Virus record (IMG/VR): IMGVR_UViG_3300009174_000002
Coordinates: 51,517-115,516 of that record
DNA from: a virus
DNA length: 64,000 nt
Reading direction: 5' to 3' (one strand)
Below the pieces are notes generated by a model. It was not told where the DNA came from. It ran no database searches and saw only the letters and a list, made by a program, of their open reading frames with translations. Of this stretch, positions 15,161 through 48,025 are shown piece after piece. The translations under genes were made by a program, and so were the position numbers. How positions within the stretch are numbered: position 1 is the first letter of the stretch; each line of letters opens with the position of its first letter.

Positions 15161-17047
15161 TTAAAGAGTTTGTTTCTTTATTTTTAAGAATTTCTCTACT
15201 CCTAAAATATTCAAATAAATTTTTTCAGCTTCAGTTAATCCTTGTAATTTTTTTTCTTTAATAATTTCTTTAGAAGTTTTGAGATTACAATTACCACCAA
15301 GGCACTGTCTTTCTGTAAGAACTAAATTTTTATTGTTTTTACTTTTGGATTCAATTAATTTTAAATTAGCTTCATAGGTAGATGGCCTACTTACTAAATC
15401 CCAACAAATCACTTCTAAATCATCTTCTACTACATCATATCCACTTCCATCTTGATAAACTGATCCTAGTGCTCTAGAGCTAATGCCTAAGGTCTTTTCA
15501 TTTAAAATTATATTTCTTGCCTTTAAAGCAGGATCGCCAGGACTGGCAAAAGCATTTAATAGTTTAATTTTACCCCATACTTCTACTCCTTTAAACCAAA
15601 TATCTTCAATTGTCATAGCTGCATTCTTTAATTCAGGCACTGTAGATTCAGAGTTTCCGGTCCAAGTAACCTTACCATCTCTCATAGTTAAAAAAGTATG
15701 ATTTTCTACCTCTATACAATAAATTCTGTCATCAAATAAAAATTCTTCTTTTTTAATTGCTCTTGCATTACAATACTTAGAAATTTTCTTTCTTATCGTA
15801 TAAGATTTATTTTCTTTTAATATTTTTTGTTTTTCAAGAACTTCATAATTTTCTTTATTGCTTCTATAAGGTTCTTTTGAATAGTAAGTGATATTATTTA
15901 CTAATTCTATTTCTTCAGTTTTTTTATTTTTTAATAAATAATCTTTTTTATAAACTTTCTTTTCTTTAATAGAAAAAGAATATCCAGTTTTTAATAATAA
16001 TTCTCCAACATCATCTATTAATTGTTTTGATACAGAATAATAATCATTTTTATGACCATCACCTTTATATAAGTATTCAATTAAAATTTCTAGATATTTT
16101 TTATCTAAATCCTTTATAAATTGAGGAATACATTTATTAAAAGCTCCTTTACCAAATTGTTCACAAAATAACCCTAATGCAGTACTATTAATAGTAAAAG
16201 TAGATTCTTTATTATCTTTTTGTATTTTTTCTCTCCAATTAAATGGCATTTGATTTAAAATATTAACTATATCATCTTTACCATTTTGCTTAGTTTGTGA
16301 AATTTGAACAAATTTAAATCCATTACTATCAGTTCTTACCCAACCTTCTGAAATAAACCATCCTAAAAATTTCATTAATACTTCAGTAGATATTTCTACT
16401 TCAGGTAATAGTTTAGTACCTTTAACAGTAATAGTTTTTAAATCCTCACCCTTCCAATTACAAAATTGAGGAATTTGAGTATTAGAATTAAATTGATCAA
16501 AAACTAAAAATTTACCTTTTTTAAAACCTTTACCTTGTTGTGTAAAAAATTTATGATTAGGCGTAACTACAGAGGAAAAATGCTCATTATATAACTTATA
16601 CATTTTACCATAGTATGGTTCATCAATTTTCTTTAATACTGGTTTGTATTCTAAATCGCCAGTATCTGGATTACGAGTAGCTACAATATCGCCTACTTTT
16701 ACATCTACAATTGATATCCAACCATTTTTAGTAAGAATAGAATGTTGATTATCTAGGCAGGGATGATCTAATTCGCCAAAGGATTGTCCGTCCCTAATTT
16801 CCTCTTTTGTATATCTTTCACATTCTTTCTTTAAAATTGAAAAAGGATATATTCTACCATTTCTATTAGGCGTATCACCTTTTTGAATTACACCCACAAG
16901 AAAAATAGGTTGGTCTGGATCTCGTTTAGCTTTTTCTAAAGCCATATTTCCACCTTCAATTTCTAATAATAAATTTTTAGATCCTTTTATGGGAGTTTCA
17001 ATTAATACTCTTCTTTCTTTTAGAACACCTTTTTTATTTACTAACAT
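15161..17047 (-). CDS. gp21: Prohead maturation protease (T4 gp21) interrupted by an intein
   Basis: The 628-residue precursor has exteins of 96 and 163 residues, giving a 259-residue mature protease (T4 gp21 is 212). The N-extein has 'VLIET' and 'NRNGRIYPFSILKK', and ends 'SFGELDHP', the catalytic His motif (T4: ALGELNHP). The C-extein resumes with 'SESTVPELKNAAMTIEDIWF' and carries 'LGISSRALGS', the catalytic Ser motif (T4: GVSSRGLGS). The intein lies directly after the His-Pro, so unspliced protein should be inactive. The enzyme cleaves capsid, scaffold and packaged proteins after (I/L)-x-E. It heads an operon with a late-type box 18 nt upstream. Confidence 0.93.
   Translation of the reverse strand: MLVNKKGVLKERRVLIETPIKGSKNLLLEIEGGNMALEKAKRDPDQPIFLVGVIQKGDTPNRNGRIYPFSILKKECERYTKEEIRDGQSFGELDHPCLDNQHSILTKNGWISIVDVKVGDIVATRNPDTGDLEYKPVLKKIDEPYYGKMYKLYNEHFSSVVTPNHKFFTQQGKGFKKGKFLVFDQFNSNTQIPQFCNWKGEDLKTITVKGTKLLPEVEISTEVLMKFLGWFISEGWVRTDSNGFKFVQISQTKQNGKDDIVNILNQMPFNWREKIQKDNKESTFTINSTALGLFCEQFGKGAFNKCIPQFIKDLDKKYLEILIEYLYKGDGHKNDYYSVSKQLIDDVGELLLKTGYSFSIKEKKVYKKDYLLKNKKTEEIELVNNITYYSKEPYRSNKENYEVLEKQKILKENKSYTIRKKISKYCNARAIKKEEFLFDDRIYCIEVENHTFLTMRDGKVTWTGNSESTVPELKNAAMTIEDIWFKGVEVWGKIKLLNAFASPGDPALKARNIILNEKTLGISSRALGSVYQDGSGYDVVEDDLEVICWDLVSRPSTYEANLKLIESKSKNNKNLVLTERQCLGGNCNLKTSKEIIKEKKLQGLTEAEKIYLNILGVEKFLKIKKQTL
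15653..16759 (-). mobile_element. LAGLIDADG intein in the prohead protease
   Basis: The intein is 369 residues (97-465 of the precursor). It begins C-L-D-N-Q-H-S (Cys1), has the block B motif 'VTPNHKFFT', two LAGLIDADG-type helices ('LMKFLGWFISEGWV' and 'LEILIEYLYKGDGH'), and a block F/G end, 'IYCIEVENHTFL...KVTWTGN', followed by Ser as first C-extein residue. The penultimate residue is Gly, not the usual His, which can slow Asn cyclisation in other inteins. Both exteins align with T4 gp21 only after removal, confirming the borders. Confidence 0.92.
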
Positions 17048-28941: not shown

Positions 28942-29361
28942 TTAATCACTACTACTATATAAATAAACTTTATCACCATTTTCATCAGTTAAAAAATCTA
29001 ACATATTATCTTCTTCTAGAACTTTAAATGTCCATTTTATAAGCTCCATATTTGGTATTACTTTTTCTATAGATGAGCCACTAATTTTAGAATCGTATCC
29101 GGCTTCAATTGCTTCATTTCTTACAACTGGTTTTGCCAATTCTAAGGCTTCTTTTCCATCCTTAGCTAAAACAAAACAAAATGCATCAAAAATATAATCA
29201 CCTAATATAATATTAACCTGATATAAATTTTTAAGATTTGGATACTTTTCTATTAGTTTTAATATTTTTTCTTTTTCTTCATCTTTTCTTCCTTCTATTC
29301 TTCTAGGTTTGAAAAGTTCATTTTCCTCAGATTCAAATAATATCTTATTTATTAAGTTCAT
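28942..29361 (-). CDS. Module-bearing protein of the VLAK paralogue family, 139 aa
   Basis: Leader 'MNLINKILFESEENELFKPR' then RIEGR. The domain 'YPNLKNLYQVNIILGDYIFD' continues with FVLAKDGKEALELAKPVV and is shared with the next gene, with the protein at 61083, and more loosely with the C-terminus of the 473-aa protein. All four place this domain directly after the module. A cut at I-L-F-E is predicted. Function of the domain unknown. Confidence 0.75.
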   Translation of the reverse strand: MNLINKILFESEENELFKPRRIEGRKDEEKEKILKLIEKYPNLKNLYQVNIILGDYIFDAFCFVLAKDGKEALELAKPVVRNEAIEAGYDSKISGSSIEKVIPNMELIKWTFKVLEEDNMLDFLTDENGDKVYLYSSSD

Positions 29362-31245: not shown

Positions 31246-34200
31246 TTATTTTTTAAACGCTTTTATTTTTCCTGTTAATAATTGTTCGGTTTGTTCAATA
31301 TGTTCACCTATAACTTTCATAAAATGTTCTTCTGTTTGAGAAATTTTACTATACATTGGTACTATTTCATAACGATTTTGATCTTCATCTTTCAAAAATG
31401 AAAATACTTCAAATTTACATTGTTCTGCATTAATACCTAATGTTATTACACGAAAAAATTTATTTTTATTATCGCCTTTTTTATATACTCTAAACATATA
31501 TACACCATTAGGTTTAATTTGTTTTAACAACTCCAATACTGTTTTAAACTTACTTAATCTTTCTTCTACTCGTCTAGGTTTAAATAAATCATCCCCTTCA
31601 CTTTCTCCTAATTCCATCTTATAAGGTGTCGTATTATATAAATCTGCATAGGAATCTTGAGTTAAATGAGGATTGCCAGAAGAAATACTTTCTTGTATAT
31701 TTTTATTAAAAATTTTATTATGAGTATCAGAATCTAATGTCTTTTGACAAAAGTTAATAAACTCTTCTAAATTATTTCTAAAATGAATTCTATTAAAATT
31801 TTTTAATTTATACAACTTAGAATCTAAGTATTTTGTTCTAACTATACCAATTTTTTTTACTAATTGGCCAATAACTTCTAAACTTATAAATTGTGGTATA
31901 AAAAATAATGTATCAAGGAAACCTGGTAGAAAACCATATTTTTGTTTAAATTCTTCGTTTTTAATTCTTTCTTTTTCAATTCTATCTTCTATTTTACGAG
32001 GTTTGAAAAAATCATCATTTTTAGATTCTCCCAATCCTCTTACTGTAGTATAACCAAAATCAGTAGCCATAGAAGATCCTGCATCTTTACTTATTTCTTC
32101 TTCCTCGGTAAATGGCGTCATTCCCATTTTTTCAAAAGTACCCGCCTGGGCTTCATTGAATTTTTTTTTATACCCAGGATATTCACAATATTTATCATAC
32201 AATTTATCTCCTTGATGAGTTCCAGATAATGAATTAGCTAGATTTACTAATTTTCTAATGTCTGCTTCTTCATAACTATTATGATCATTATCATTATCAT
32301 TCATCATATAATACCAATCAAAGTTTTTAAGTTTATTTTCAAGTTTAAATAATACTTGTTTTAAACTAGGACCAGGTTTAGTTTTTTCTTGTATTAACCC
32401 TACATAATTTGCTTTACCTTTGTTTTTTTGTACATAATCATAAGCAGTAGAACTATCAGTAAAATAAATTGAATTATCAGTATTCAAACCATATACATTA
32501 GCTTTTAAATTTACTTTATATACATGATCATCATCTGGTCTATATAAATAATTTTCTTTTTGTAAAGCCTCTTTTAAATTAAAATAGTTATAAAAATCTT
32601 TTTGTAAACTATAGGAACTAATAATTCCTTTAGCTTGATTTACTATATCTTTTCCATCAGAGTTAGATTGTTCTAAATAATCCTCCCAACTGATACTTGC
32701 ATTATTAGTATATCCAGATTTTATTTGATCCCATTCATTTTGTGCTTCGAGATTAGGGCATCTAGCAAAATATTCATCTAATCTTCCAAGTGTATATACT
32801 GGATCGGAAACTTTATCTAAATTTAATCCTTCGTTTATTGATTTAGATTCGGTTATTTCTTGATATCTAGATCTTTTATTAAAAGGATTATCTGGACAAT
32901 GCCATTCATTTTCTATCCAATAGGCACTAGTTCTATAGATTCCATTATTTCCAAATTGATTAGGGAAATCAAGTATGGCATTACAATGTGCAGTATATAA
33001 TTCTATATCATTATTATATTTTATATTACTAGTAATTTTTGCTTTTACACTATCTTTACCATTATTATAATATACATTTATTGTCAATTCAATTATAGAT
33101 CCTACTGGAAAATTTTTATTTAATTTTTCTTCTTCATTTTTTATTAACTGTTCTCTATCTTCTATGCGCCTGGGTTTAAACAAATTTTTATTCTCTTTTA
33201 AACCATATTTTTTTGATTCTTGATATTTATGTTCTTGATTATCTGAATCATCTAAAAAATTTCCTTCCGAAGTAATATGACTAGGACTAAGTGTAATCCA
33301 CATATTTCCTTCCTCCCTTTCTGGATGATATGAGATAGAGGTAAAATCCCAATTTAATTTTCTAACTAAAGGTTTTAATAATTCAGCAAACTTAGGTACA
33401 TCTACAGGAATATTTAAATCTTTTATTTTACAAATAAAATTTAAGTAATCGGGATATAAGCTACCATAATGAATTTTACTTCCATTTATAGGTTCTAATC
33501 TATCGCCAAATACTTCTTTTATATTATTTAACAAAGAGAAGAAATCCGATTTATTAGCATTTAAAATTTTCCTGTCGGGATCAAATTCATTTATCCAATA
33601 TTCACCTCGATTTCGTTTATCAAGTTTAAATTCATTATTTTTTGATGCCTTGATATTTAATTCTTGAAATCTATTTTGTCTCTCTAATTTTTGTCTTTTT
33701 AGTTCTTCTTGTTGTCTTTGTTCTATTTTTCTAGGTTTAAAAATATCATCAGATTCATTAATCTTTTTATTTTTATTAACTAATACTTTATTACCATTTT
33801 GCAATAAATCTCCAGTATTAATCAAATATTTAGTCCATTTAGACAAATTCATACTATTTATTTGTCCTGTAAACAATTCTGCTAAATCTCTCAATCTCCA
33901 AGTTGTAGTAGCGCCAGCGCCTGGTCTAGAAATAAGCATTAGTATAACATTCCAACCTTGTGGAGATAATTTTTTCTTTAATATAGTTAAAGATGCTTTA
34001 ACTATAGGTCTTCTACCAAAATTTCGTTCAGAATATTTATCTAAAATTGCTTTTTCTTTTTCTGGGCTAATACCAGAAAAAGCTTTTTGCTTCATAGTTT
34101 CAATATTCTTTTTATATTTTAATGCATTTTCTTCAGCTCTAGATTCGTTCTGTTCTTTTCTTATTTCTTTGGCTTTTTGTATAGCATCTTTAGTAAGTTG

Positions 34201-34770
34201 AATTTGAATATCCAAATCATCTTTATTTTTATCTAAATTATCTATATATTCGTTCCAAAATATGAGAGAAGTTTCTGATATTTTTCTAAATTCATCTAAT
34301 TCAAATTTAGTATTTACATCATATTTATCAAATTTATTTTTAAAAACTTTAATTGTTTTAGAAAGAAAATTAAATAAAATACTTTTAGATTTATTATCTA
34401 TTCCCATCCATTTTAAACCCTCTTTAATATCTGTTTTTTTATCATCTACCAGTTTTTTATATGTTTTTTCTAATCTCCCTTCTAATTTCCTTGGTCTAAA
34501 AAGATTTTCGTCTTCTTCTTTCAATTGTCTAGATTCGTTGATAGGTGCTTGTAATAACTCATCAAATAATTCCTGGAAATCAGAACCTGTATTCATGAGA
34601 ATAACATTCTGATTTTTTTCTTTGTATCTTTTTAAATAATCTTGACCTTTTTCAGGATTAGCCACAATCAAATGTCTATACTCACATATATCATCAACAA
34701 TATATGTTTCCGCATCTTCCTGCCAAGGTTGTTTTAAAAATTCTTGAAACTTTTTTATAAAAAGATTCAT
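31246..34770 (-). CDS. Putative packaged polyprotein with five FKPRR modules, 1174 aa
   Basis: Modules occur at about residues 91 (LKEEDENLFRPRK), 344 (INESDDIFKPRK), 531 (LKENKNLFKPRR), 922 (LGESKNDDFFKPRK) and 1063 (LGESEGDDLFKPRR). Each is followed by (I/V/L)-E-x-R and preceded by an x-x-E-S/E site. Between them are unrelated domains of roughly 250, 185, 390, 140 and 110 residues, including a helical region with 'SPQGWNVILMLISRPGAGAT' and a beta domain, 'NFPVGSIIELTINVYYNNGK'. The layout looks like a concatenation of what elsewhere are single module proteins. I infer proteolytic release by the prohead protease. No enzyme domain was recognised. Confidence 0.75.
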   Translation of the reverse strand: MNLFIKKFQEFLKQPWQEDAETYIVDDICEYRHLIVANPEKGQDYLKRYKEKNQNVILMNTGSDFQELFDELLQAPINESRQLKEEDENLFRPRKLEGRLEKTYKKLVDDKKTDIKEGLKWMGIDNKSKSILFNFLSKTIKVFKNKFDKYDVNTKFELDEFRKISETSLIFWNEYIDNLDKNKDDLDIQIQLTKDAIQKAKEIRKEQNESRAEENALKYKKNIETMKQKAFSGISPEKEKAILDKYSERNFGRRPIVKASLTILKKKLSPQGWNVILMLISRPGAGATTTWRLRDLAELFTGQINSMNLSKWTKYLINTGDLLQNGNKVLVNKNKKINESDDIFKPRKIEQRQQEELKRQKLERQNRFQELNIKASKNNEFKLDKRNRGEYWINEFDPDRKILNANKSDFFSLLNNIKEVFGDRLEPINGSKIHYGSLYPDYLNFICKIKDLNIPVDVPKFAELLKPLVRKLNWDFTSISYHPEREEGNMWITLSPSHITSEGNFLDDSDNQEHKYQESKKYGLKENKNLFKPRRIEDREQLIKNEEEKLNKNFPVGSIIELTINVYYNNGKDSVKAKITSNIKYNNDIELYTAHCNAILDFPNQFGNNGIYRTSAYWIENEWHCPDNPFNKRSRYQEITESKSINEGLNLDKVSDPVYTLGRLDEYFARCPNLEAQNEWDQIKSGYTNNASISWEDYLEQSNSDGKDIVNQAKGIISSYSLQKDFYNYFNLKEALQKENYLYRPDDDHVYKVNLKANVYGLNTDNSIYFTDSSTAYDYVQKNKGKANYVGLIQEKTKPGPSLKQVLFKLENKLKNFDWYYMMNDNDNDHNSYEEADIRKLVNLANSLSGTHQGDKLYDKYCEYPGYKKKFNEAQAGTFEKMGMTPFTEEEEISKDAGSSMATDFGYTTVRGLGESKNDDFFKPRKIEDRIEKERIKNEEFKQKYGFLPGFLDTLFFIPQFISLEVIGQLVKKIGIVRTKYLDSKLYKLKNFNRIHFRNNLEEFINFCQKTLDSDTHNKIFNKNIQESISSGNPHLTQDSYADLYNTTPYKMELGESEGDDLFKPRRVEERLSKFKTVLELLKQIKPNGVYMFRVYKKGDNKNKFFRVITLGINAEQCKFEVFSFLKDEDQNRYEIVPMYSKISQTEEHFMKVIGEHIEQTEQLLTGKIKAFKK

Positions 34771-36121: not shown

Positions 36122-36155
36122 AAAAAAGGTGATAAAGTACTTTATCTTATCACCT
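36122..36155 (-). terminator. Intrinsic terminator overlapping end of gp46
   Basis: Stem AGGTGATAA..TAAAG / CTTTATCACCT ending in a T-run on the minus strand (TTTTTTA). The gp46 stop codon lies inside the left arm, so the terminator is built into the gene end. Confidence 0.8.
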
Positions 36156-38610
36156 CTGTATATTTATTTTCTTTAGAAAGTAGTATTTGAGTATTATAAA
36201 TATCTTTTAATTCATCGACATGAGATATTAAAATCAGATTTTTATAATAGTTAAGTAGCGAAGTAAATAAGACTGGAATTTTATCTAAGTTATAAGGATC
36301 AAGAACATCAAAACCTTCATCAATAATCAAGGTTTGCAACTTAGGTTGTTCGGATAATTGAGTTAATCCTACTTTAATACATAAATTAATAACAAAAGTT
36401 TCAGAACCTGAAGCCAAACTTACATCACAGGTTTCCTCATCTTTATCATTATCATATTGAAATTCTAAATTAAGTTCACCCTTTTCATTATCTATTTTAA
36501 ATGTAATATCAAAATCAAATACTTGGTTGGAAATAATATTTATTTCTTGATTAATTGCTGAAATTTTTTCATCTACTATAAAAAGGGGGAAACCATCTTT
36601 GGCAACTATTTTCTTGTAAATATTATATATTCTGATTTCTTTTTCAGATTCTTGTATTTCTTTTAATTTATTATTATACTTAACAATTTCATTTTGTAAA
36701 TTTTTAATTTTTTCCTTATTAGTTGCAGAAATAGATTTTAAAGAATAAATATTATCTTGTAAAATTTTTTTCTCTGATTTAAATTCTAATATTAATTTTT
36801 GATGATCTAGCATTAATTCTTTGGCATCTTTAATTTCTTGTTCTTTTTGTCTAGATTCTAATATTTTCTCCTTTAAAATATTAATAGTATTTTTACAAGC
36901 TCCTGTTTCTACATCATAAACTAAGTATTTTGAATCAATTTTACTAATCTCATTTTCAATAGTTAAAATTTGTTTTTCTAGGTTAGTTTTATTTTTTTCA
37001 TTGGTCTGAATAAGATTTTCTGTATCTTGTAAATCTAAATATAAATCTTTAATAGAATTATAATGAATTTGAACTTTCTCGCATTCTTTTCCTAGTTTAT
37101 TTATCTTTTCCTGTTTATTTTCTACTTCTTTTTCAATTTCTAAAATTCTATCTGTATTTTTCTTTTTATCTTTTTCAGTATAGTCTTTTCCACAACCATT
37201 ACAAACATTAATACTTAATTGTTTTCTATGTCTTTGACTTTCAGATTGTAAAACTGCTATATCTTTTTCTAAAGTATGTATTTTTTCTTTTAAACTTTTT
37301 TCAAGTTTTGAAAAATTTTCATAAGTTTCATGAAAATTTTCTTCAAATGCTAATTTAGAATCAGCAATTTTTTCTAACTCTTTTTTCTTTATTTCTTCAG
37401 TATCTAATATCTTATTTTGTAATTCAATCTTCGAGGTTTCTAAATCATATACTCTTTTCTTTAATTTTTCTACTTCTTCATCTTTTCCATTTTTAATAGT
37501 TTCTAGTTCTTTAATTCTTTTTTCCTGTTTAGAAATTTTAAATTCAATTACATCTACTTCTTCATAGGGTTGATTTACTATAGCTTCATATTTAGATAAT
37601 TTTTGTTGTTGTTCAAATATAGATTCATCTATATACTTTAATTTTTCCTCATGATTTTCAATGTTAAATTGATTGTTAATTATAAAACTATTTAAATTCT
37701 CAATTTCTTTTAATAATTCTTCTTCGTCTACTGTATTATTAAAAGATTTTATTAAACTTTCATGAACTTTATTTTTTACCGACAAATCTTCTAGTACTGC
37801 CTTATGTTTTAAAGTAAATTCCTGTAGACCTAAAAATTGATTTACATGTTTTAATCTATCCGCATTTTTACAATCAATAAAATCTACTTGCTTTTTTTGT
37901 GCAGAAAATAAAGATAGAATTTCAAACATATCTTGTGTACCAAATTGTTTTTCTATATTCTTTTCCGTTTCTTGTCTTTTTTCTCCATTTAAGTTTTCTA
38001 TTATTTCACCTTCTTTATCAATTTTATAAAACTCTAGTTCAAAACTAACATTATCAGTCTTCTTAGGTATAATAGTTCTAGTTATTTGATATCTTTCATT
38101 ATTTTTGATTAGAATTAATTCTACTATACCATTTTTACTTCTGTTATATTTGTTAATTATTTTTTTATAAGAAGTAGTATTTTGAGGTACTGTACCATGA
38201 AGACAGAATTGAATCAATTTTAAAATTGAACTATTGTGTGAAACAATTCCATTAGAATAATATTGTTTTACATCTTGTACTTGAATATCATATAAATCCT
38301 TAGTTTCAGATAATAATATAATACTTTTGATTTTTGAATCACCTTTAATAGTTTTTAATTTTTGTCCTGGATTTAGTAACTCAATTTCTTTAAATCTGCC
38401 ATTTGAGGTTTTAAACTTATGTTTAGGACTTGTTTTAATCTCCATTTCATTTTCTAAAATAGTATGAATAACTTTAGAGTTTTTAGCAGTAATATCACAA
38501 GCTTCTATTTTTTTATAACCATAAGGAGTATTTACTTTTAAATTTAAATCTCCATATTTTTTAAAAATATTATAAACTTCTCCTATTGTAATTTTTTTAT
38601 ATTGTTCCAT
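36142..38610 (-). CDS. gp46: C-intein plus gp46 (Rad50-like) recombination nuclease subunit
   Basis: Residues 1-126 are a C-terminal split intein ending 'YYSNGIVSHN'. The C-extein starts 'SSILKLIQFCLHGT', which is the end of a Rad50/gp46 P-loop lacking its first half. A long coiled coil follows, with zinc hook 'INVCNGCGKDY' near the middle, then the ABC signature region 'VSLASGSETFVINLCIKVGL' and Walker B 'LQTLIIDEGFDVLDP'. The 696-residue extein cannot bind ATP until joined to the N-extein from the gp47 ORF. gp46/47 resects DNA ends for recombination-dependent replication. Confidence 0.93.
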   Translation of the reverse strand: MEQYKKITIGEVYNIFKKYGDLNLKVNTPYGYKKIEACDITAKNSKVIHTILENEMEIKTSPKHKFKTSNGRFKEIELLNPGQKLKTIKGDSKIKSIILLSETKDLYDIQVQDVKQYYSNGIVSHNSSILKLIQFCLHGTVPQNTTSYKKIINKYNRSKNGIVELILIKNNERYQITRTIIPKKTDNVSFELEFYKIDKEGEIIENLNGEKRQETEKNIEKQFGTQDMFEILSLFSAQKKQVDFIDCKNADRLKHVNQFLGLQEFTLKHKAVLEDLSVKNKVHESLIKSFNNTVDEEELLKEIENLNSFIINNQFNIENHEEKLKYIDESIFEQQQKLSKYEAIVNQPYEEVDVIEFKISKQEKRIKELETIKNGKDEEVEKLKKRVYDLETSKIELQNKILDTEEIKKKELEKIADSKLAFEENFHETYENFSKLEKSLKEKIHTLEKDIAVLQSESQRHRKQLSINVCNGCGKDYTEKDKKKNTDRILEIEKEVENKQEKINKLGKECEKVQIHYNSIKDLYLDLQDTENLIQTNEKNKTNLEKQILTIENEISKIDSKYLVYDVETGACKNTINILKEKILESRQKEQEIKDAKELMLDHQKLILEFKSEKKILQDNIYSLKSISATNKEKIKNLQNEIVKYNNKLKEIQESEKEIRIYNIYKKIVAKDGFPLFIVDEKISAINQEINIISNQVFDFDITFKIDNEKGELNLEFQYDNDKDEETCDVSLASGSETFVINLCIKVGLTQLSEQPKLQTLIIDEGFDVLDPYNLDKIPVLFTSLLNYYKNLILISHVDELKDIYNTQILLSKENKYTEVIR
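38233..38610 (-). mobile_element. C-terminal half of split intein
   Basis: 126 residues at the start of the gp46 ORF. It contains a block B-like 'EIKTSPKHKFKTSNG', a strand-rich core, and block F/G 'LYDIQVQDVKQYYSNGIVSH' then N, followed by Ser. There is no endonuclease domain. Paired with the 29-residue N-half it makes a 155-residue mini-intein split unusually near its N-terminus, as in metagenomic atypical split inteins such as AceL-TerL. Confidence 0.9.
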
Positions 38611-39806
38611 ATGTATTCTTTTAGATAATTTATATCGTTTGTAAATAAAGTGTTTAAACTATACTTTAAACATAAATCTTTTTTCTTTTTAGTTTTTTTA
38701 TCATATTCAACATGTACTCCTTGCAGTCCTAAATACTCGACATATAAGTTAAGTTTATTAATATAAAAATCATATTTATAACCTTTATTTCCTATGTAAT
38801 AATTGTTATACTTAAATTCTATATTATTATCTTCTAAAAATTTTGCAATTTCAAATTCTGATTGTGATCTTAACGTTAAATCTTTATATTTGATGATACT
38901 GCCATATTTTACACCAGGTTTAATTTGTCTTCTTAATAATTGAGATTTATAAAAAATTTCCATTTCATTTTTGTTAAATCCTAATTTATATCTTGTCAAG
39001 CTACTTTTACAAATTAAACGTAATATATTTTTGTTATTAATTTTATCGATCTCCTTAATAAATTCATCATGTATTTTTAAAAAATTATCAATAAAAAATT
39101 TTTTAACTTCTTTTGATTTAATTTTATTTTTTTCTAAAAAAATTTCTACAAATTTATCTCCATATTTATGATAAAATTTTTCTGGTGTTTTAGAAATTTT
39201 CTTCAAATTAATTGTTTCTAATTCTTCTTTAGTTTTACTTTTTAATTTTTCTTGCCATCTAATTTGTCTATCTTCCCATTTTTTTCTACCATTTATTTCG
39301 CCATATTTTTCAATGCATTTTCCTAATGTAAAAGTGGTTTGTCTTAAACTTCTTAATTTTTCTGCATCTTCCAGTGTATAACCTTTATCTAGCCAATATT
39401 GTAATCCAGTTGAAGATCTATTTTTAATTTTTTGGATATGATCTTGCCATTTTTTTAAACCCTTTTCTTTACCTAATTTTTTTTGCCATTTTTCTAAACT
39501 ACAAGTTTTTGTTTCTTTTAATAATTCTTTGGCTTCTTCTAAATCATATCCTTTATTTAAGTAATATTCTAATGTAGTAGGTCTTCTAATATTTAATTGT
39601 TTTTTAGCTTCTTCTAAATCATATCCTTTATCCAACCAATGTTGTAAAGAATAAGAACTAGTTTTAGGCGGTCGTTTTTCTTTAGGTATTTTTAATATAG
39701 GTTCATTAAATTTAATTTTATATTCATTTATTTTAATATCATGTGTTCTAATATGTCGTGTTAAATCAAAACTTCGGTGTCCACAAATTTTACAAATCAA
39801 TATCAT
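38583..39806 (-). CDS. Vsr/PD-(D/E)XK-type homing endonuclease nested in split intein gene
   Basis: The 407-residue protein starts with a zinc-finger-like 'CKICGHRSFDLTRHIRTH', followed by several repeats of a short helical DNA-binding-like unit ('YWLDKGYTLEDAEKL', 'YYLNKGYDLEEAKELL'). The C-terminal nuclease core is 'LRSQSEFEIAKFLEDNNIEF', 'YKYDFYINKLNLYVEYLG', with E, D and E in the Vsr-like order. It lies between the N-intein and C-intein ORFs, the fractured-gene arrangement described for phage split inteins. It overlaps the gp46 ORF by 28 nt and has its own late-type box. Confidence 0.85.
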   Translation of the reverse strand: MILICKICGHRSFDLTRHIRTHDIKINEYKIKFNEPILKIPKEKRPPKTSSYSLQHWLDKGYDLEEAKKQLNIRRPTTLEYYLNKGYDLEEAKELLKETKTCSLEKWQKKLGKEKGLKKWQDHIQKIKNRSSTGLQYWLDKGYTLEDAEKLRSLRQTTFTLGKCIEKYGEINGRKKWEDRQIRWQEKLKSKTKEELETINLKKISKTPEKFYHKYGDKFVEIFLEKNKIKSKEVKKFFIDNFLKIHDEFIKEIDKINNKNILRLICKSSLTRYKLGFNKNEMEIFYKSQLLRRQIKPGVKYGSIIKYKDLTLRSQSEFEIAKFLEDNNIEFKYNNYYIGNKGYKYDFYINKLNLYVEYLGLQGVHVEYDKKTKKKKDLCLKYSLNTLFTNDINYLKEYIWNNIKKLQ

Positions 39807-39821
39807 TATTCGTATTTTTAT

Positions 39822-39830
39822 TTTAAATAC
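39822..39830 (-). promoter_or_regulatory. Late-promoter-like box of the homing endonuclease
   Basis: The minus strand reads ATCGTATTTAAAATAAAAATAC, ending 15 nt before the endonuclease start, inside the 68-nt gap after the N-intein ORF. It would make the endonuclease and gp46 C-part late-transcribed in addition to any read-through. Confidence 0.4.
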
Positions 39831-39874
39831 GATATGTTATAAATAGTTTTGGTAAATGTTCAAAACTATTTAAT

Positions 39875-41221
39875 TTATTTTAATTCATTCGGCAAAAATC
39901 CTAATTTCTTAATTATTTCTTCTATATTATATTGTATTTCAATTTCTGTATCTGGATCTACACATTTTCCACTTGTATTTTTACCATTAATTCCAATAAT
40001 CTCATTTAAACTAAACTCGTTAAAAATAGTTTCTGAAGGGGGGAATGAAAAAAGATTATTTACTTTTAATTGTTCAATATGATAATCTCCAGGTTCAAAT
40101 ATTCTATCTAAGTTTAAACTACCATCATATAAATTATCTAGTTTAATAATTTCTTCTCTATCCTCTTGAAAATTATTAATCTGTAAATATTTACTTTCCT
40201 TTAATAAATATTTTTCAAATAATTCTGCAATATTTAGTTTTCCTGTATCAATTTCAATAGTACCATCCTCTTTTACTACTAACTGTTTATTTATTAGTTT
40301 TGGTTTAATTTCTACTTTATTATTAGGATAAACTTTTTGAAACTTCTTTTTATATTCAAGTATATCGGATTTGAATAATTTAGTCTTATCATAAATTAAT
40401 TTAATAGTTTGTTGAGGATATATTACTTCTCCAATATCAGGTATATTTATAGTATCTAATACTTCATGTCTAATTATTGAATGTTCATTATCTATCTTTT
40501 TAACTTCTGGATGAAAATTATTATGCAGTTTATTCCAAGTATAAACTAAATAGGAACCATGAGGTTCCTCATTTTCTTTGGTTTGAATGAAACTGCCACA
40601 ATAGTTTATTTCATTATTTCTAAAATTTTGCTGCATGTGTATATCACCAGCGATTACAATATTGCATTTATCAAATTCTTCAATATCTATACCTTCCGTT
40701 AAAGTAAAACCATTATCCGCTTTACAACCTTTTATAGCTCCATGATATAAACCTATTGTATAATATTTTATTCGTTCTTCTTTATTAATAAATGGTGATC
40801 TTTGATTATCTAAACAACTCCATATAGCCCAATCTATTTTATTATCAAAATTATAAATTCCAGATTCATCAATATAAATAATTTCATTAGATAAATTTTC
40901 TATATCAATTGAATTTATTACTACCTCTAATAATCCTTTTCTTTCTTTATTTTGTAAATTTACATCATGATTTCCAGGAATTATTAAAACTTTTGTAAAA
41001 AGTGAACAATCAATTAAAAACTTTCTAACAATTTCAAATTGCTCGGATGAAACATTTAGTTTTGAATCAATAACATCACCTACTATTACAAGCCAAGTAG
41101 GGTTTTCTGAACATAATATTTTTATAAATTTATCAAAAAGTGTTATATGTTCATTAAAACGTTTTGATTTGAAGATGTGCAGATCGGAAATACTGATAAT
41201 TTTTATATCTTTCAAAGTCAT
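39875..41221 (-). CDS. gp47: gp47 (Mre11-like) nuclease fused to gp46 N-terminus and N-intein
   Basis: Residues 1-375 are an SbcD/Mre11 phosphoesterase: 'ISISDLHIFKSKRFNEH', 'LVIVGDVIDSK', 'LIIPGNHDVNLQ', 'LYHGAIKGC' and 'IVIAGDIHMQQ' are the metal-binding motifs. From about 378 the sequence becomes gp46: 'HIEQLKVNNLFSFPPSETIF' then IIGINGKNTSGK, the first half of the P-loop. Residue 420 (Cys) starts a 29-residue N-intein that ends the ORF. After trans-splicing the product would be a single 1115-residue gp47-gp46 protein, unlike T4, where they are separate. It overlaps the primase stop by 4 nt. Confidence 0.92.
   Translation of the reverse strand: MTLKDIKIISISDLHIFKSKRFNEHITLFDKFIKILCSENPTWLVIVGDVIDSKLNVSSEQFEIVRKFLIDCSLFTKVLIIPGNHDVNLQNKERKGLLEVVINSIDIENLSNEIIYIDESGIYNFDNKIDWAIWSCLDNQRSPFINKEERIKYYTIGLYHGAIKGCKADNGFTLTEGIDIEEFDKCNIVIAGDIHMQQNFRNNEINYCGSFIQTKENEEPHGSYLVYTWNKLHNNFHPEVKKIDNEHSIIRHEVLDTINIPDIGEVIYPQQTIKLIYDKTKLFKSDILEYKKKFQKVYPNNKVEIKPKLINKQLVVKEDGTIEIDTGKLNIAELFEKYLLKESKYLQINNFQEDREEIIKLDNLYDGSLNLDRIFEPGDYHIEQLKVNNLFSFPPSETIFNEFSLNEIIGINGKNTSGKCVDPDTEIEIQYNIEEIIKKLGFLPNELK
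39878..39964 (-). mobile_element. N-terminal half of split intein (29 residues)
   Basis: C-V-D-P-D-T-E-I-E-I-Q-Y..., with block A features (Cys1, then D-x-E), ending 'EEIIKKLGFLPNELK'. It follows the P-loop Lys directly. The very short N-half resembles the 25-residue AceL-TerL N-intein (C-V-Y-G-D-T...). Confidence 0.9.
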
Positions 41222-46603: not shown

Positions 46604-48025
46604 ATGTCTAATCCATTTGATTTAACCAACCAAGAAATAAGTAATACTTATCAGCGTTTAATTCAAATAAATATTGATGATAATACTTATTATGATGGAT
46701 TAGGCAACCCTCTTACAATAAGCAGTACTAGCGGATATTCAGGATATTCCGGCTTCTCAGGATATAGTGGATATTCTGGTTATAGCGGAATATCAGGATA
46801 CTCAGGATTTTCAGGTTATAGTGGTAATATCGGCAATCCGGGAACCTCTGGATATAGCGGATTCTCAGGCGCAGGTTCTTCTGGATTTAGTGGATATTCC
46901 GGAAATTCTACATCTGGATATTCAGGCTATAGCGGTTTAGGAGGAATTTCTGGTTATAGTGGTTACTCAGGATATTCTGGAACTACAGGAGGACAAGGAA
47001 CCTCAGGATATAGTGGTTATAGTGGTCCAGGAGGTTCTATAGGTGCCAGTGGATATTCTGGCTATTCCGGGGTTGGAATTAGTGGTTATAGTGGCTTTAG
47101 TGGAAGTTCTATTTCAGGATATTCTGGATTTTCAGGAATATCCGGATTTAGTGGCTATTCAGGACTAGATGGAATTGGAACTAGTGGATACTCAGGATTT
47201 TCAGGAAATAGTATTTCTGGATTTAGTGGATTTTCTGGAACAAATGGAACATCTGGATATTCAGGTTATAGTGGTTATTCTGGTTACTCGGGAATAACTG
47301 GCACATCAGGTTATAGCGGGTATAGTGGTCCAGGAGGGATACAAGGGACTTCTGGATATAGTGGATATTCAGGATTAGATGGATCAGTAGGACAAAGCGG
47401 TTATTCAGGATATTCTGGTGTACAAGGAAGTATAGGAACTAGTGGATATTCCGGTTATAGTGGTATTACTGGTAGTACAGGATTAGATGGATCCTCTGGG
47501 TATTCTGGTTACTCTGGAATTAGTGGTTATAGTGGATTTAGTGGTCTTACTGGCGATACAGGATTAACTGGATTGTCTGGCTTTAGTGGATACTCAGGTA
47601 GTAATGGATCAGTAGGTAATTCTGGTTTTAGCGGTTATAGTGGGTACTCGGGAATTTCAGGTTATTCGGGATTTTCCGGAATAAGTGGCTACTCTGGTTA
47701 TTCCGGAAAATCAGGATATTCTGGATTCTCTGGTTTATCTGGATATTCAGGTTATAGTGGTATATCTGGATACAGTGGATATTCGGGTATTAGTGGTTAT
47801 TCAGGGTATTCAGGCTTATCTGGTTATTCTGGATTTAGTGGTATAAGTGGATTTAGCGGAGCTAACCCTGGAGCTTCTGGATACTCAGGATTTTCAGGTG
47901 TGAGTGGGTTTAGCGGTGCCAATCCTGGTGCTTCAGGGTATAGTGGATATTCAGGTACATTTAGCTACGGAAAAGTATTTGTAACAGAATTAAATTCAAA
48001 TAGTTTATTATCAATTTTACCATAA
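46604..48025 (+). CDS. Collagen-like virion fibre protein, 473 aa
   Basis: After a 43-residue head ('LTNQEISNTYQRLIQINIDD'), about 410 residues are Gly-X-Y triplets, dominated by G-Y-S and G-F-S ('SGYSGYSGFSGYSG'), with spacers such as 'GPGGSIGAS' and 'GLDGSVGQ'. The C-terminal 22 residues ('YGKVFVTELNSNSLLSILP') are a non-repeat cap. It should form a collagen-like triple-helical fibre, although it is nearly free of proline, so stability must come from another source. It leads a late operon with two other probable surface proteins. Host attachment is inferred. Confidence 0.85.
   Translation: MSNPFDLTNQEISNTYQRLIQINIDDNTYYDGLGNPLTISSTSGYSGYSGFSGYSGYSGYSGISGYSGFSGYSGNIGNPGTSGYSGFSGAGSSGFSGYSGNSTSGYSGYSGLGGISGYSGYSGYSGTTGGQGTSGYSGYSGPGGSIGASGYSGYSGVGISGYSGFSGSSISGYSGFSGISGFSGYSGLDGIGTSGYSGFSGNSISGFSGFSGTNGTSGYSGYSGYSGYSGITGTSGYSGYSGPGGIQGTSGYSGYSGLDGSVGQSGYSGYSGVQGSIGTSGYSGYSGITGSTGLDGSSGYSGYSGISGYSGFSGLTGDTGLTGLSGFSGYSGSNGSVGNSGFSGYSGYSGISGYSGFSGISGYSGYSGKSGYSGFSGLSGYSGYSGISGYSGYSGISGYSGYSGLSGYSGFSGISGFSGANPGASGYSGFSGVSGFSGANPGASGYSGYSGTFSYGKVFVTELNSNSLLSILP
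46733..47956 (+). repeat. Collagen-like Gly-Tyr-Ser / Gly-Phe-Ser coding repeat
   Basis: About 135 near-perfect 9-nt units (GGN-TAY/TTY-AGY or TCN). Synonymous codons vary widely from unit to unit (TCA, TCT, TCC, AGT, AGC), so the protein repeat is selected while DNA identity is reduced, which would limit recombination slippage. Confidence 0.9.

Follow-up and report, generated by a model that had tools for sequence, protein, structure and literature searches.

The 64-kb stretch of DNA analysed here (the window) is the right-hand part of the 115,516-bp virus record IMGVR_UViG_3300009174_000002 from IMG/VR. It very probably carries a fractured gene for an Mre11–Rad50 fusion protein, in which an atypically split class-1 intein interrupts the Walker A loop (P-loop) of the Rad50 part and a probable homing endonuclease gene lies between the two intein halves. 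The N gene encodes the Mre11 part and Rad50 up to the P-loop lysine, followed by the intein N-half (IN). The C gene opens with the intein C-half (IC) and continues with the rest of Rad50, supplying Ser420 and Ser421 of the P-loop; joining the two parts restores GKSS. The nuclease gene stands between both half-genes and all three have one orientation, the arrangement that characterises a fractured gene. The features of the locus are as follows.

39875–41221, minus: N gene, 448 amino acids (aa), ending with GINGKNTSGK and then CVDPDTEIEIQYNIEEIIKKLGFLPNELK
39965–41221, minus: N-extein, 419 aa, comprising the Mre11/SbcD (gp47) nuclease domain and the first part of Rad50/gp46 to GINGKNTSGK (Metallophos and sbcd matches; alignment with fusions encoded by a single open reading frame, ORF)
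39965–39994, minus: N-terminal side of the Walker A P-loop, G410 to K419, with G418 and K419 present in 77/77 uninterrupted homologues
39962–39964, minus: codon of IN Cys1, directly after the P-loop GK
39878–39964, minus: IN, 29 aa from Cys1, a strand and then a conserved helix-like tail, IIKKLGFLPNELK (IN profile; codon conservation in relatives; match to the N-terminus of the L180 intein)
39875–39877, minus: stop codon of the N gene
38583–39806, minus: nuclease ORF, 407 aa, probable homing endonuclease gene (family profile; homologues in the same position)
38583–38610, minus: 28-nucleotide overlap of the nuclease gene end and the C gene start (ORF coordinates)
36142–38610, minus: C gene, 822 aa
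38233–38610, minus: IC, 126 aa, ending with VSHN, with block B His64, block F Asp108, His125 and Asn126 (residue conservation; match to VidaL; structural model and Foldseek)
36145–38232, minus: C-extein, 696 aa, the rest of Rad50/gp46, beginning SSILKL (SbcC-like by phrog_77; motifs)

The preliminary description of this DNA had seen an N-terminal ORF that ends with GINGKNTSGK and a Cys-initiated tail of 29 residues, and a C-terminal ORF with 126 residues to VSHN before it resumes at SSIL and completes GKSS. Both lie where they were placed (39964–39878 and 38610–38233). The split intein proposed for the P-loop is borne out as well, since residues, profiles and contiguous relatives at the same site agree.

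Two halves of one intein

By their sequences, the 29-aa and the 126-aa pieces are the two halves of one intein. Joined, they align from end to end with contiguous inteins that occupy this site in other phage contigs (loci given as L numbers), with identities of 60% (L180), 53% (L186), 50% (L204) and 50% (L208). The alignment with the 158-aa contiguous intein of L180 scores 461, compared with a maximum of 22 for shuffled sequences. Likewise, the Pfam family Intein_splicing matches the C gene alone with 18.3 bits and the joined 155 residues with 35.0 bits. Intein profiles, which the preliminary description had named as the way to check both halves, recognise each of them. A profile of IN built without the window picks the tail of the N gene from 2919 six-frame ORFs with an E of 4.5e-10, the runner-up having 0.33, and an IC profile, also built without the window, finds the C part at E 9.5e-28.

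The residues of a class-1 intein are all present: Cys at position 1, H64, D108, H125, N126 and Ser420 at position +1. Across 44 aligned ICs, four columns alone show no variation: the block B His, the block F Asp, the penultimate His and the last Asn. Searched against the PDB, the IC family profile matches VidaL (E 8.8e-21) as well as the gp41-1, Cat, DnaX, RadA and NrdJ-1 inteins. The preliminary description expected a complete HINT fold from the two halves together. Modelling covered IC alone, which is predicted to adopt a HINT fold: its AlphaFold2 model has a predicted local distance difference test score (pLDDT) of 93.5, with a helix at residues 9–19, and VidaL is its best Foldseek match by template modelling (TM) score (0.85, 1.6 Å). 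Foldseek returned 52 PDB matches with E ≤ 0.001, and those listed are inteins or related HINT folds.

The tail of IN is conserved in the group to which the window belongs, with the pattern (I/V)xxK(L/I)GF(L/I)PxEL, and its codons are under purifying selection in relatives. Between L144 and L155, 6.0 of 8.7 synonymous sites have changed, compared with 1.0 of 39.3 non-synonymous sites. The tail is also found in the contiguous inteins and is thus part of the intein rather than debris. Conservation in the relatives and presence in the contiguous inteins exclude a random extension or a duplicated helix. Judged from these comparisons, the tail is an ordinary part of the intein between the first strand and IC.

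These data also bear on two other explanations. The intein might have decayed, so that its halves no longer splice and the Mre11–Rad50 gene is a pseudogene in this phage. The C-terminal domain of the window nuclease, which is devoid of the WHxNP motif of some homologues, would fit such decay. However, the frames are open throughout, the motifs of Mre11, Rad50 and the intein are all kept, and the IN tail of close relatives has changed mostly at synonymous sites; decay is highly improbable. The other explanation is removal of the intervening stretch at the RNA level by a group I or group II intron, the two tails being artefacts of reading intron sequence. Nuclease genes of this kind are indeed found in introns too, but the window has no Rfam match anywhere at the gathering threshold, and both tails are conserved protein sequences that are translated as one protein in the contiguous relatives. 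RNA splicing is therefore barely conceivable here.

The interrupted Mre11–Rad50 fusion

The host of the split intein was first described as gp46. The P-loop site is indeed that of Rad50/gp46; the first ORF is mostly Mre11/gp47, so the host is a fused Mre11–Rad50. The N gene product is an Mre11/SbcD phosphoesterase (Metallophos, Pfam E 1.2e-9; sbcd, E 1.4e-9) and the C gene product is SbcC-like (phrog_77, E 1e-33). Joined in silico, the exteins yield an 1115-aa fusion that unites phosphoesterase motifs, Walker A and B, signature and zinc hook in one product. The N-extein keeps the Mre11 motifs DLH13, GD48, GNHD83 and GDIH192, and the C-extein keeps the Rad50 coiled coil, the CNGC zinc hook (CxxC), the ASGSE signature, the LIIDEG Walker B motif and the ISH of the H-loop.

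In the Microcystis phage Mel-JY01, the equivalent of the joined protein is a single ORF of 1066 aa, with 27% identity in an end-to-end alignment (E 5e-63) that runs through the junction without a gap. When viral_contigs was scanned with the N gene, the C gene or the nuclease as single sequences, there were no matches, and alignment queries were needed. A scan of this collection recovered at least 523 Mre11–Rad50 relatives among 600 candidate stretches, of which 80 were kept as uninterrupted ORFs of 1044–1147 aa. The joined window protein has no gap around the junction when compared with 77/77 distinct intact fusions. In these, the residue to the left of the junction is Lys in 77/77 and the residue to the right (+1) is Ser in 76/77. 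The break therefore cuts Walker A between Lys and Ser.

Fusions of Mre11 and Rad50 (SbcDC) are already known, for example Mimivirus R555 (PMC3175470), which likewise has nuclease and ATPase in one polypeptide. The fusions of that type are single ORFs, and inteins are not mentioned in that paper, whereas the host gene in the window is split.

In a further reading, the gene was broken by insertion of the nuclease gene and its two products work as a non-covalent complex that needs no splicing, like NrdA of phage Aeh1, which is split by mobE, or the split gene 43. Split genes of this sort are documented in T4-like phages (PMC2988022). In addition, L004, L095, L108, L144 and L149 have an Mre11 part that is interrupted by other nucleases or by unrelated genes, and no intein is visible at these breaks. 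On the other hand, the two pieces in the window bear intein halves that complement each other and retain every catalytic residue, and a nucleotide-binding site broken between the P-loop Lys and Ser is unlikely to form from separate chains that bear 29 and 126 extra residues. Assembly without splicing is thus quite improbable, and a split intein remains the preferred explanation of the locus.

The breaks of the Mre11 part in L095, L108, L144 and L149 are separate from that in Rad50 and lie upstream of it. In L004 (5944–7584) and L095 (1805–3618), another nuclease ORF interrupts the Mre11 part at GDIHKRQ; an intein is not visible there, and the broken N pieces end in similar tails (..DELEKYLNSGWKLDEN and ..NELKQYIKDGWLIDN).

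Position of the split

Two types of split accompany the nuclease family found in the window. In the first (L099 and others, S2-type in gp46), the first helix belongs to the N-half, which has 32–40 aa. In the second, to which the window belongs together with L093–L096, L105, L108, L125, L128, L144 and L155, the N-half has 24–31 aa and the first helix is kept in the C-half, as in VidaL. With 29 and 126 aa, the window intein has the proportions of a VidaL-like (S1) split, in which IN has about 15–40 aa and IC carries the first helix. The very short N-half noted at the outset is thus confirmed at 29 aa, but it lies within the published range of 15–37 aa for natural atypical N-halves (PMC13014065).

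VidaL (PDB 6vgv/6vgw) shares the very short IN, and the window IC starts before the first α-helix and aligns from the start of the VidaL IC. It differs in the length of IN, 16 aa (PMC13014065) against 29 aa with a conserved helix-like tail in the window; the window host, Mre11–Rad50, is different as well. AceL-TerL, GOS-TerL and Cat, which have the S2-type atypical split, resemble the window in their short IN, HINT-type IC and phage P-loop ATPase hosts, and Cat is among the PDB matches. The AceL and GOS TerL inteins are split after the first helix (PMC13014065), whereas the window IC retains it. The contiguous mini-inteins of L180, L186, L204 and L208 share the P-loop insertion point and 50–60% identity over the whole intein, but each is a single ORF without a nuclease.

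The nuclease gene and its family

The 407-aa ORF is a full member of its family (E 4e-46 with a family profile built without the window). It consists of an N-terminal zinc finger of the C2H2 or Ros-MucR-like kind, repeated YWLxKGY modules and a putatively PD-(D/E)XK-like C-terminal domain, and it shares the pattern YDFY..YVEYxG with its homologues. Some of these match the Pfam families DUF559 (8/50) or MTES_1575 (10/50). The window nuclease itself has no Pfam match below 0.001 and no fold match; its structural model is weak (pLDDT 75.6) and without a match in the PDB, which weighs against the interpretation of the locus given here. Of the Vsr/PD-(D/E)XK nuclease proposed in the preliminary description, the ORF between the halves stands, and the gene appears PD-(D/E)XK-like through its DUF559 and MTES_1575 relatives, not through a Pfam or fold match of its own. 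The same description had the nuclease nested in the intein; instead, it is a separate gene between the halves and not a domain inside the intein polypeptide. Its stop overlaps the start of the C gene in 70/72 related loci, which suggests translational coupling.

The description was right that a fractured gene with a split intein and a nuclease is a known kind of arrangement. Within the family, the nuclease lies between an N-half starting with Cys and a C-half ending with HN in about 70 of 84 loci, an approximate count because the halves were recognised by pattern and many of the remaining loci are cut by contig ends or unclear. Sorted by host, in the author's reading of family counts that overlap, 52 distinct C genes comprise 34 SbcC-like genes (the commonest host), 5 for TerL, 4 for DnaB-like helicases, 3 for Clp-type protease ATPases, 3 for clamp loaders, 2 for UvsW-like helicases and 1 for PhoH. 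All 52 hosts are P-loop NTPases, and the break lies in the P-loop. Because the sample was assembled around this nuclease, the proportions of hosts are not those of phages at large.

An exchange of the nuclease in the window, to which the lower similarity of the L095/L155-type nucleases might point, is not claimed, because a tree with one clade is not rejected (approximately unbiased test, p 0.23) and L189 and L179, which have the same intein as the window, carry collinear nucleases (32% over about 440 aa).

Related nucleases also occur in other settings. The same virus record, outside the window, encodes two free-standing ORFs (L178, 3221–3655 and 4893–6017) with a related nuclease domain (EFDGDLWHCNP and EIHGDWWHCNP) and no adjoining intein halves. 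Vibrio phage vB_VmeM-32 (L092) has two fractured genes near each other. In UvsX, the split intein is canonical and accompanied by a SegG-like ORF; in the gp41 helicase, it is atypical and accompanied by a nuclease of the window family.

A series of states at one site

A search with IC finds the same intein in many SbcC genes, in several states. The site is empty in 77 intact genes. It holds a contiguous intein of 147–158 aa, at the same Lys|Ser or Lys|Thr, in L180, L186, L204 (identical to L206) and L208 (identical to L209); compared with the joined window halves, their lengths differ mainly at the split point. The intein is split without a nuclease in L187, L195 and L201, with only 25–66 nucleotides between the halves. 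L182 has a split intein with a relic of the nuclease zinc finger (42–46% identity to the best intact copies, E 5e-10 to 8e-6), and L190 has a GIY-YIG nuclease instead (Pfam, 1.2e-10). The split intein with a nuclease of the window family is found in the window, L183, L189, L205 and others. The fused Mre11–Rad50 host with the same split site occurs in L182, L183 (identical to L184 and L185), L189 and L190, and with a contiguous intein in L180 and L186; the complete window architecture is repeated in L183–L185 and L189.

The relic in L182 and the GIY-YIG nuclease in L190, at the same split site, are compatible with a homing cycle. In the IC tree, contiguous forms stand in four places among split ones; four changes are needed, at least three of them forced by well-supported branches. 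In this tree, loci that had no explicit label were treated as split with a nuclease; the contiguous/split count is unaffected by this, apart from contigs whose sequence begins within the region (L224, for example). Re-fusion is hinted at by L180, in which an in-frame ATG persists where the C-half used to start. The intein in the phage Rad50 P-loop may alternate between a contiguous and a split state while nucleases are gained, lost and exchanged, and at least one contiguous intein may be a re-fused split one. As the element lies in the gene for the enzyme thought to resect the breaks that the element makes, homing may be coupled to phage double-strand-break repair through splicing. This proposal is tentative, and we consider it somewhat more doubtful than convincing.

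Splicing and homing

Two polypeptides would be made from the locus, Mre11-Rad50N-IN and IC-Rad50C. Docking of the 29-aa IN on the 126-aa IC would complete the HINT fold. Trans-splicing would then proceed by an N–S shift at Cys1, transesterification to Ser420, the P-loop Ser that serves as the +1 nucleophile, and cyclisation of Asn126, with the participation of block B His64, block F Asp108 and His125/Asn126. The product would be one protein of 1115 aa with an uninterrupted GKNTSGKSS P-loop. Trans-splicing by IN and IC is inferred from their sequences. Neither precursor has a complete Walker A motif, and the ATPase should thus be off before splicing; its activity would then depend on trans-splicing.

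The probable target of the nuclease is the P-loop coding sequence of alleles that lack the intein; repair of the cut would copy the whole block (homing). Both the activity of the nuclease and homing are putative. In T4, gp46 and gp47 are "possibly" implicated in intron homing (PMC2988022), so the gene that houses the element may help the element to spread. Resection of double-strand breaks, the task of the host enzyme, is a step that homing may need.

Relation to known fractured genes

In the fractured genes presented by Dassa et al. in 2009, an N-exon with IN, a nuclease gene and IC with a C-exon reportedly follow each other in one orientation. The order and orientation in the window are the same, and the host differs, being Rad50 fused to Mre11. 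No intein in gp46, Rad50 or SbcC was found in the literature searched, which comprised open-licence papers only. The locus had been called a valuable new member. Its Rad50-type host is new to the literature searched, but the arrangement is not singular, as it recurs in L182, L183–L185, L189 and L190. The kind is already known, namely a fractured gene with an atypically split intein and a nuclease in between; what the locus adds is its recurrence and the range of states found at a single site. The same codon of this gene family is seen empty, with a contiguous intein, and with a split intein that has no nuclease, this nuclease, a nuclease relic or a different nuclease, so that the origin of split inteins can be tested directly. 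The 29-aa N-half, with junctions at Lys|Cys and Asn|Ser, is also short enough for use in protein ligation.

Other observations

The window contains a second intein (15161–17047, minus), which is contiguous, carries a LAGLIDADG domain and lies in the prohead core protease (Peptidase_S77), directly after GELDHP and near a conserved His. Split inteins occur in terminase genes of other phages. In L174 (1673–5261; LR756500), the C-half of the TerL split intein ends with SSQ instead of SHN, and PhoH of the same 462-kb phage is also fractured by a split intein. In Campylobacter Fletchervirus (L007, 1489–2817; L008, 3486–4821), the annotated C-part of TerL opens with an intein C-half of about 100 aa, apparently an atypically split intein that is not annotated as such.

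A repeated motif, ESEE(N)LFKPRR(I/V/L)xxR, is found in 18 copies in 15 minus-strand ORFs of the window (e.g. 28942–29361 and 31246–34770). It mostly lies near the N-terminus of small proteins, and four copies are in one protein of 1174 aa; it is possibly a capsid-targeting or protease-processing signal. Finally, the window encodes a 473-aa collagen-like protein of GYSGYSG-type repeats (46604–48025, plus).

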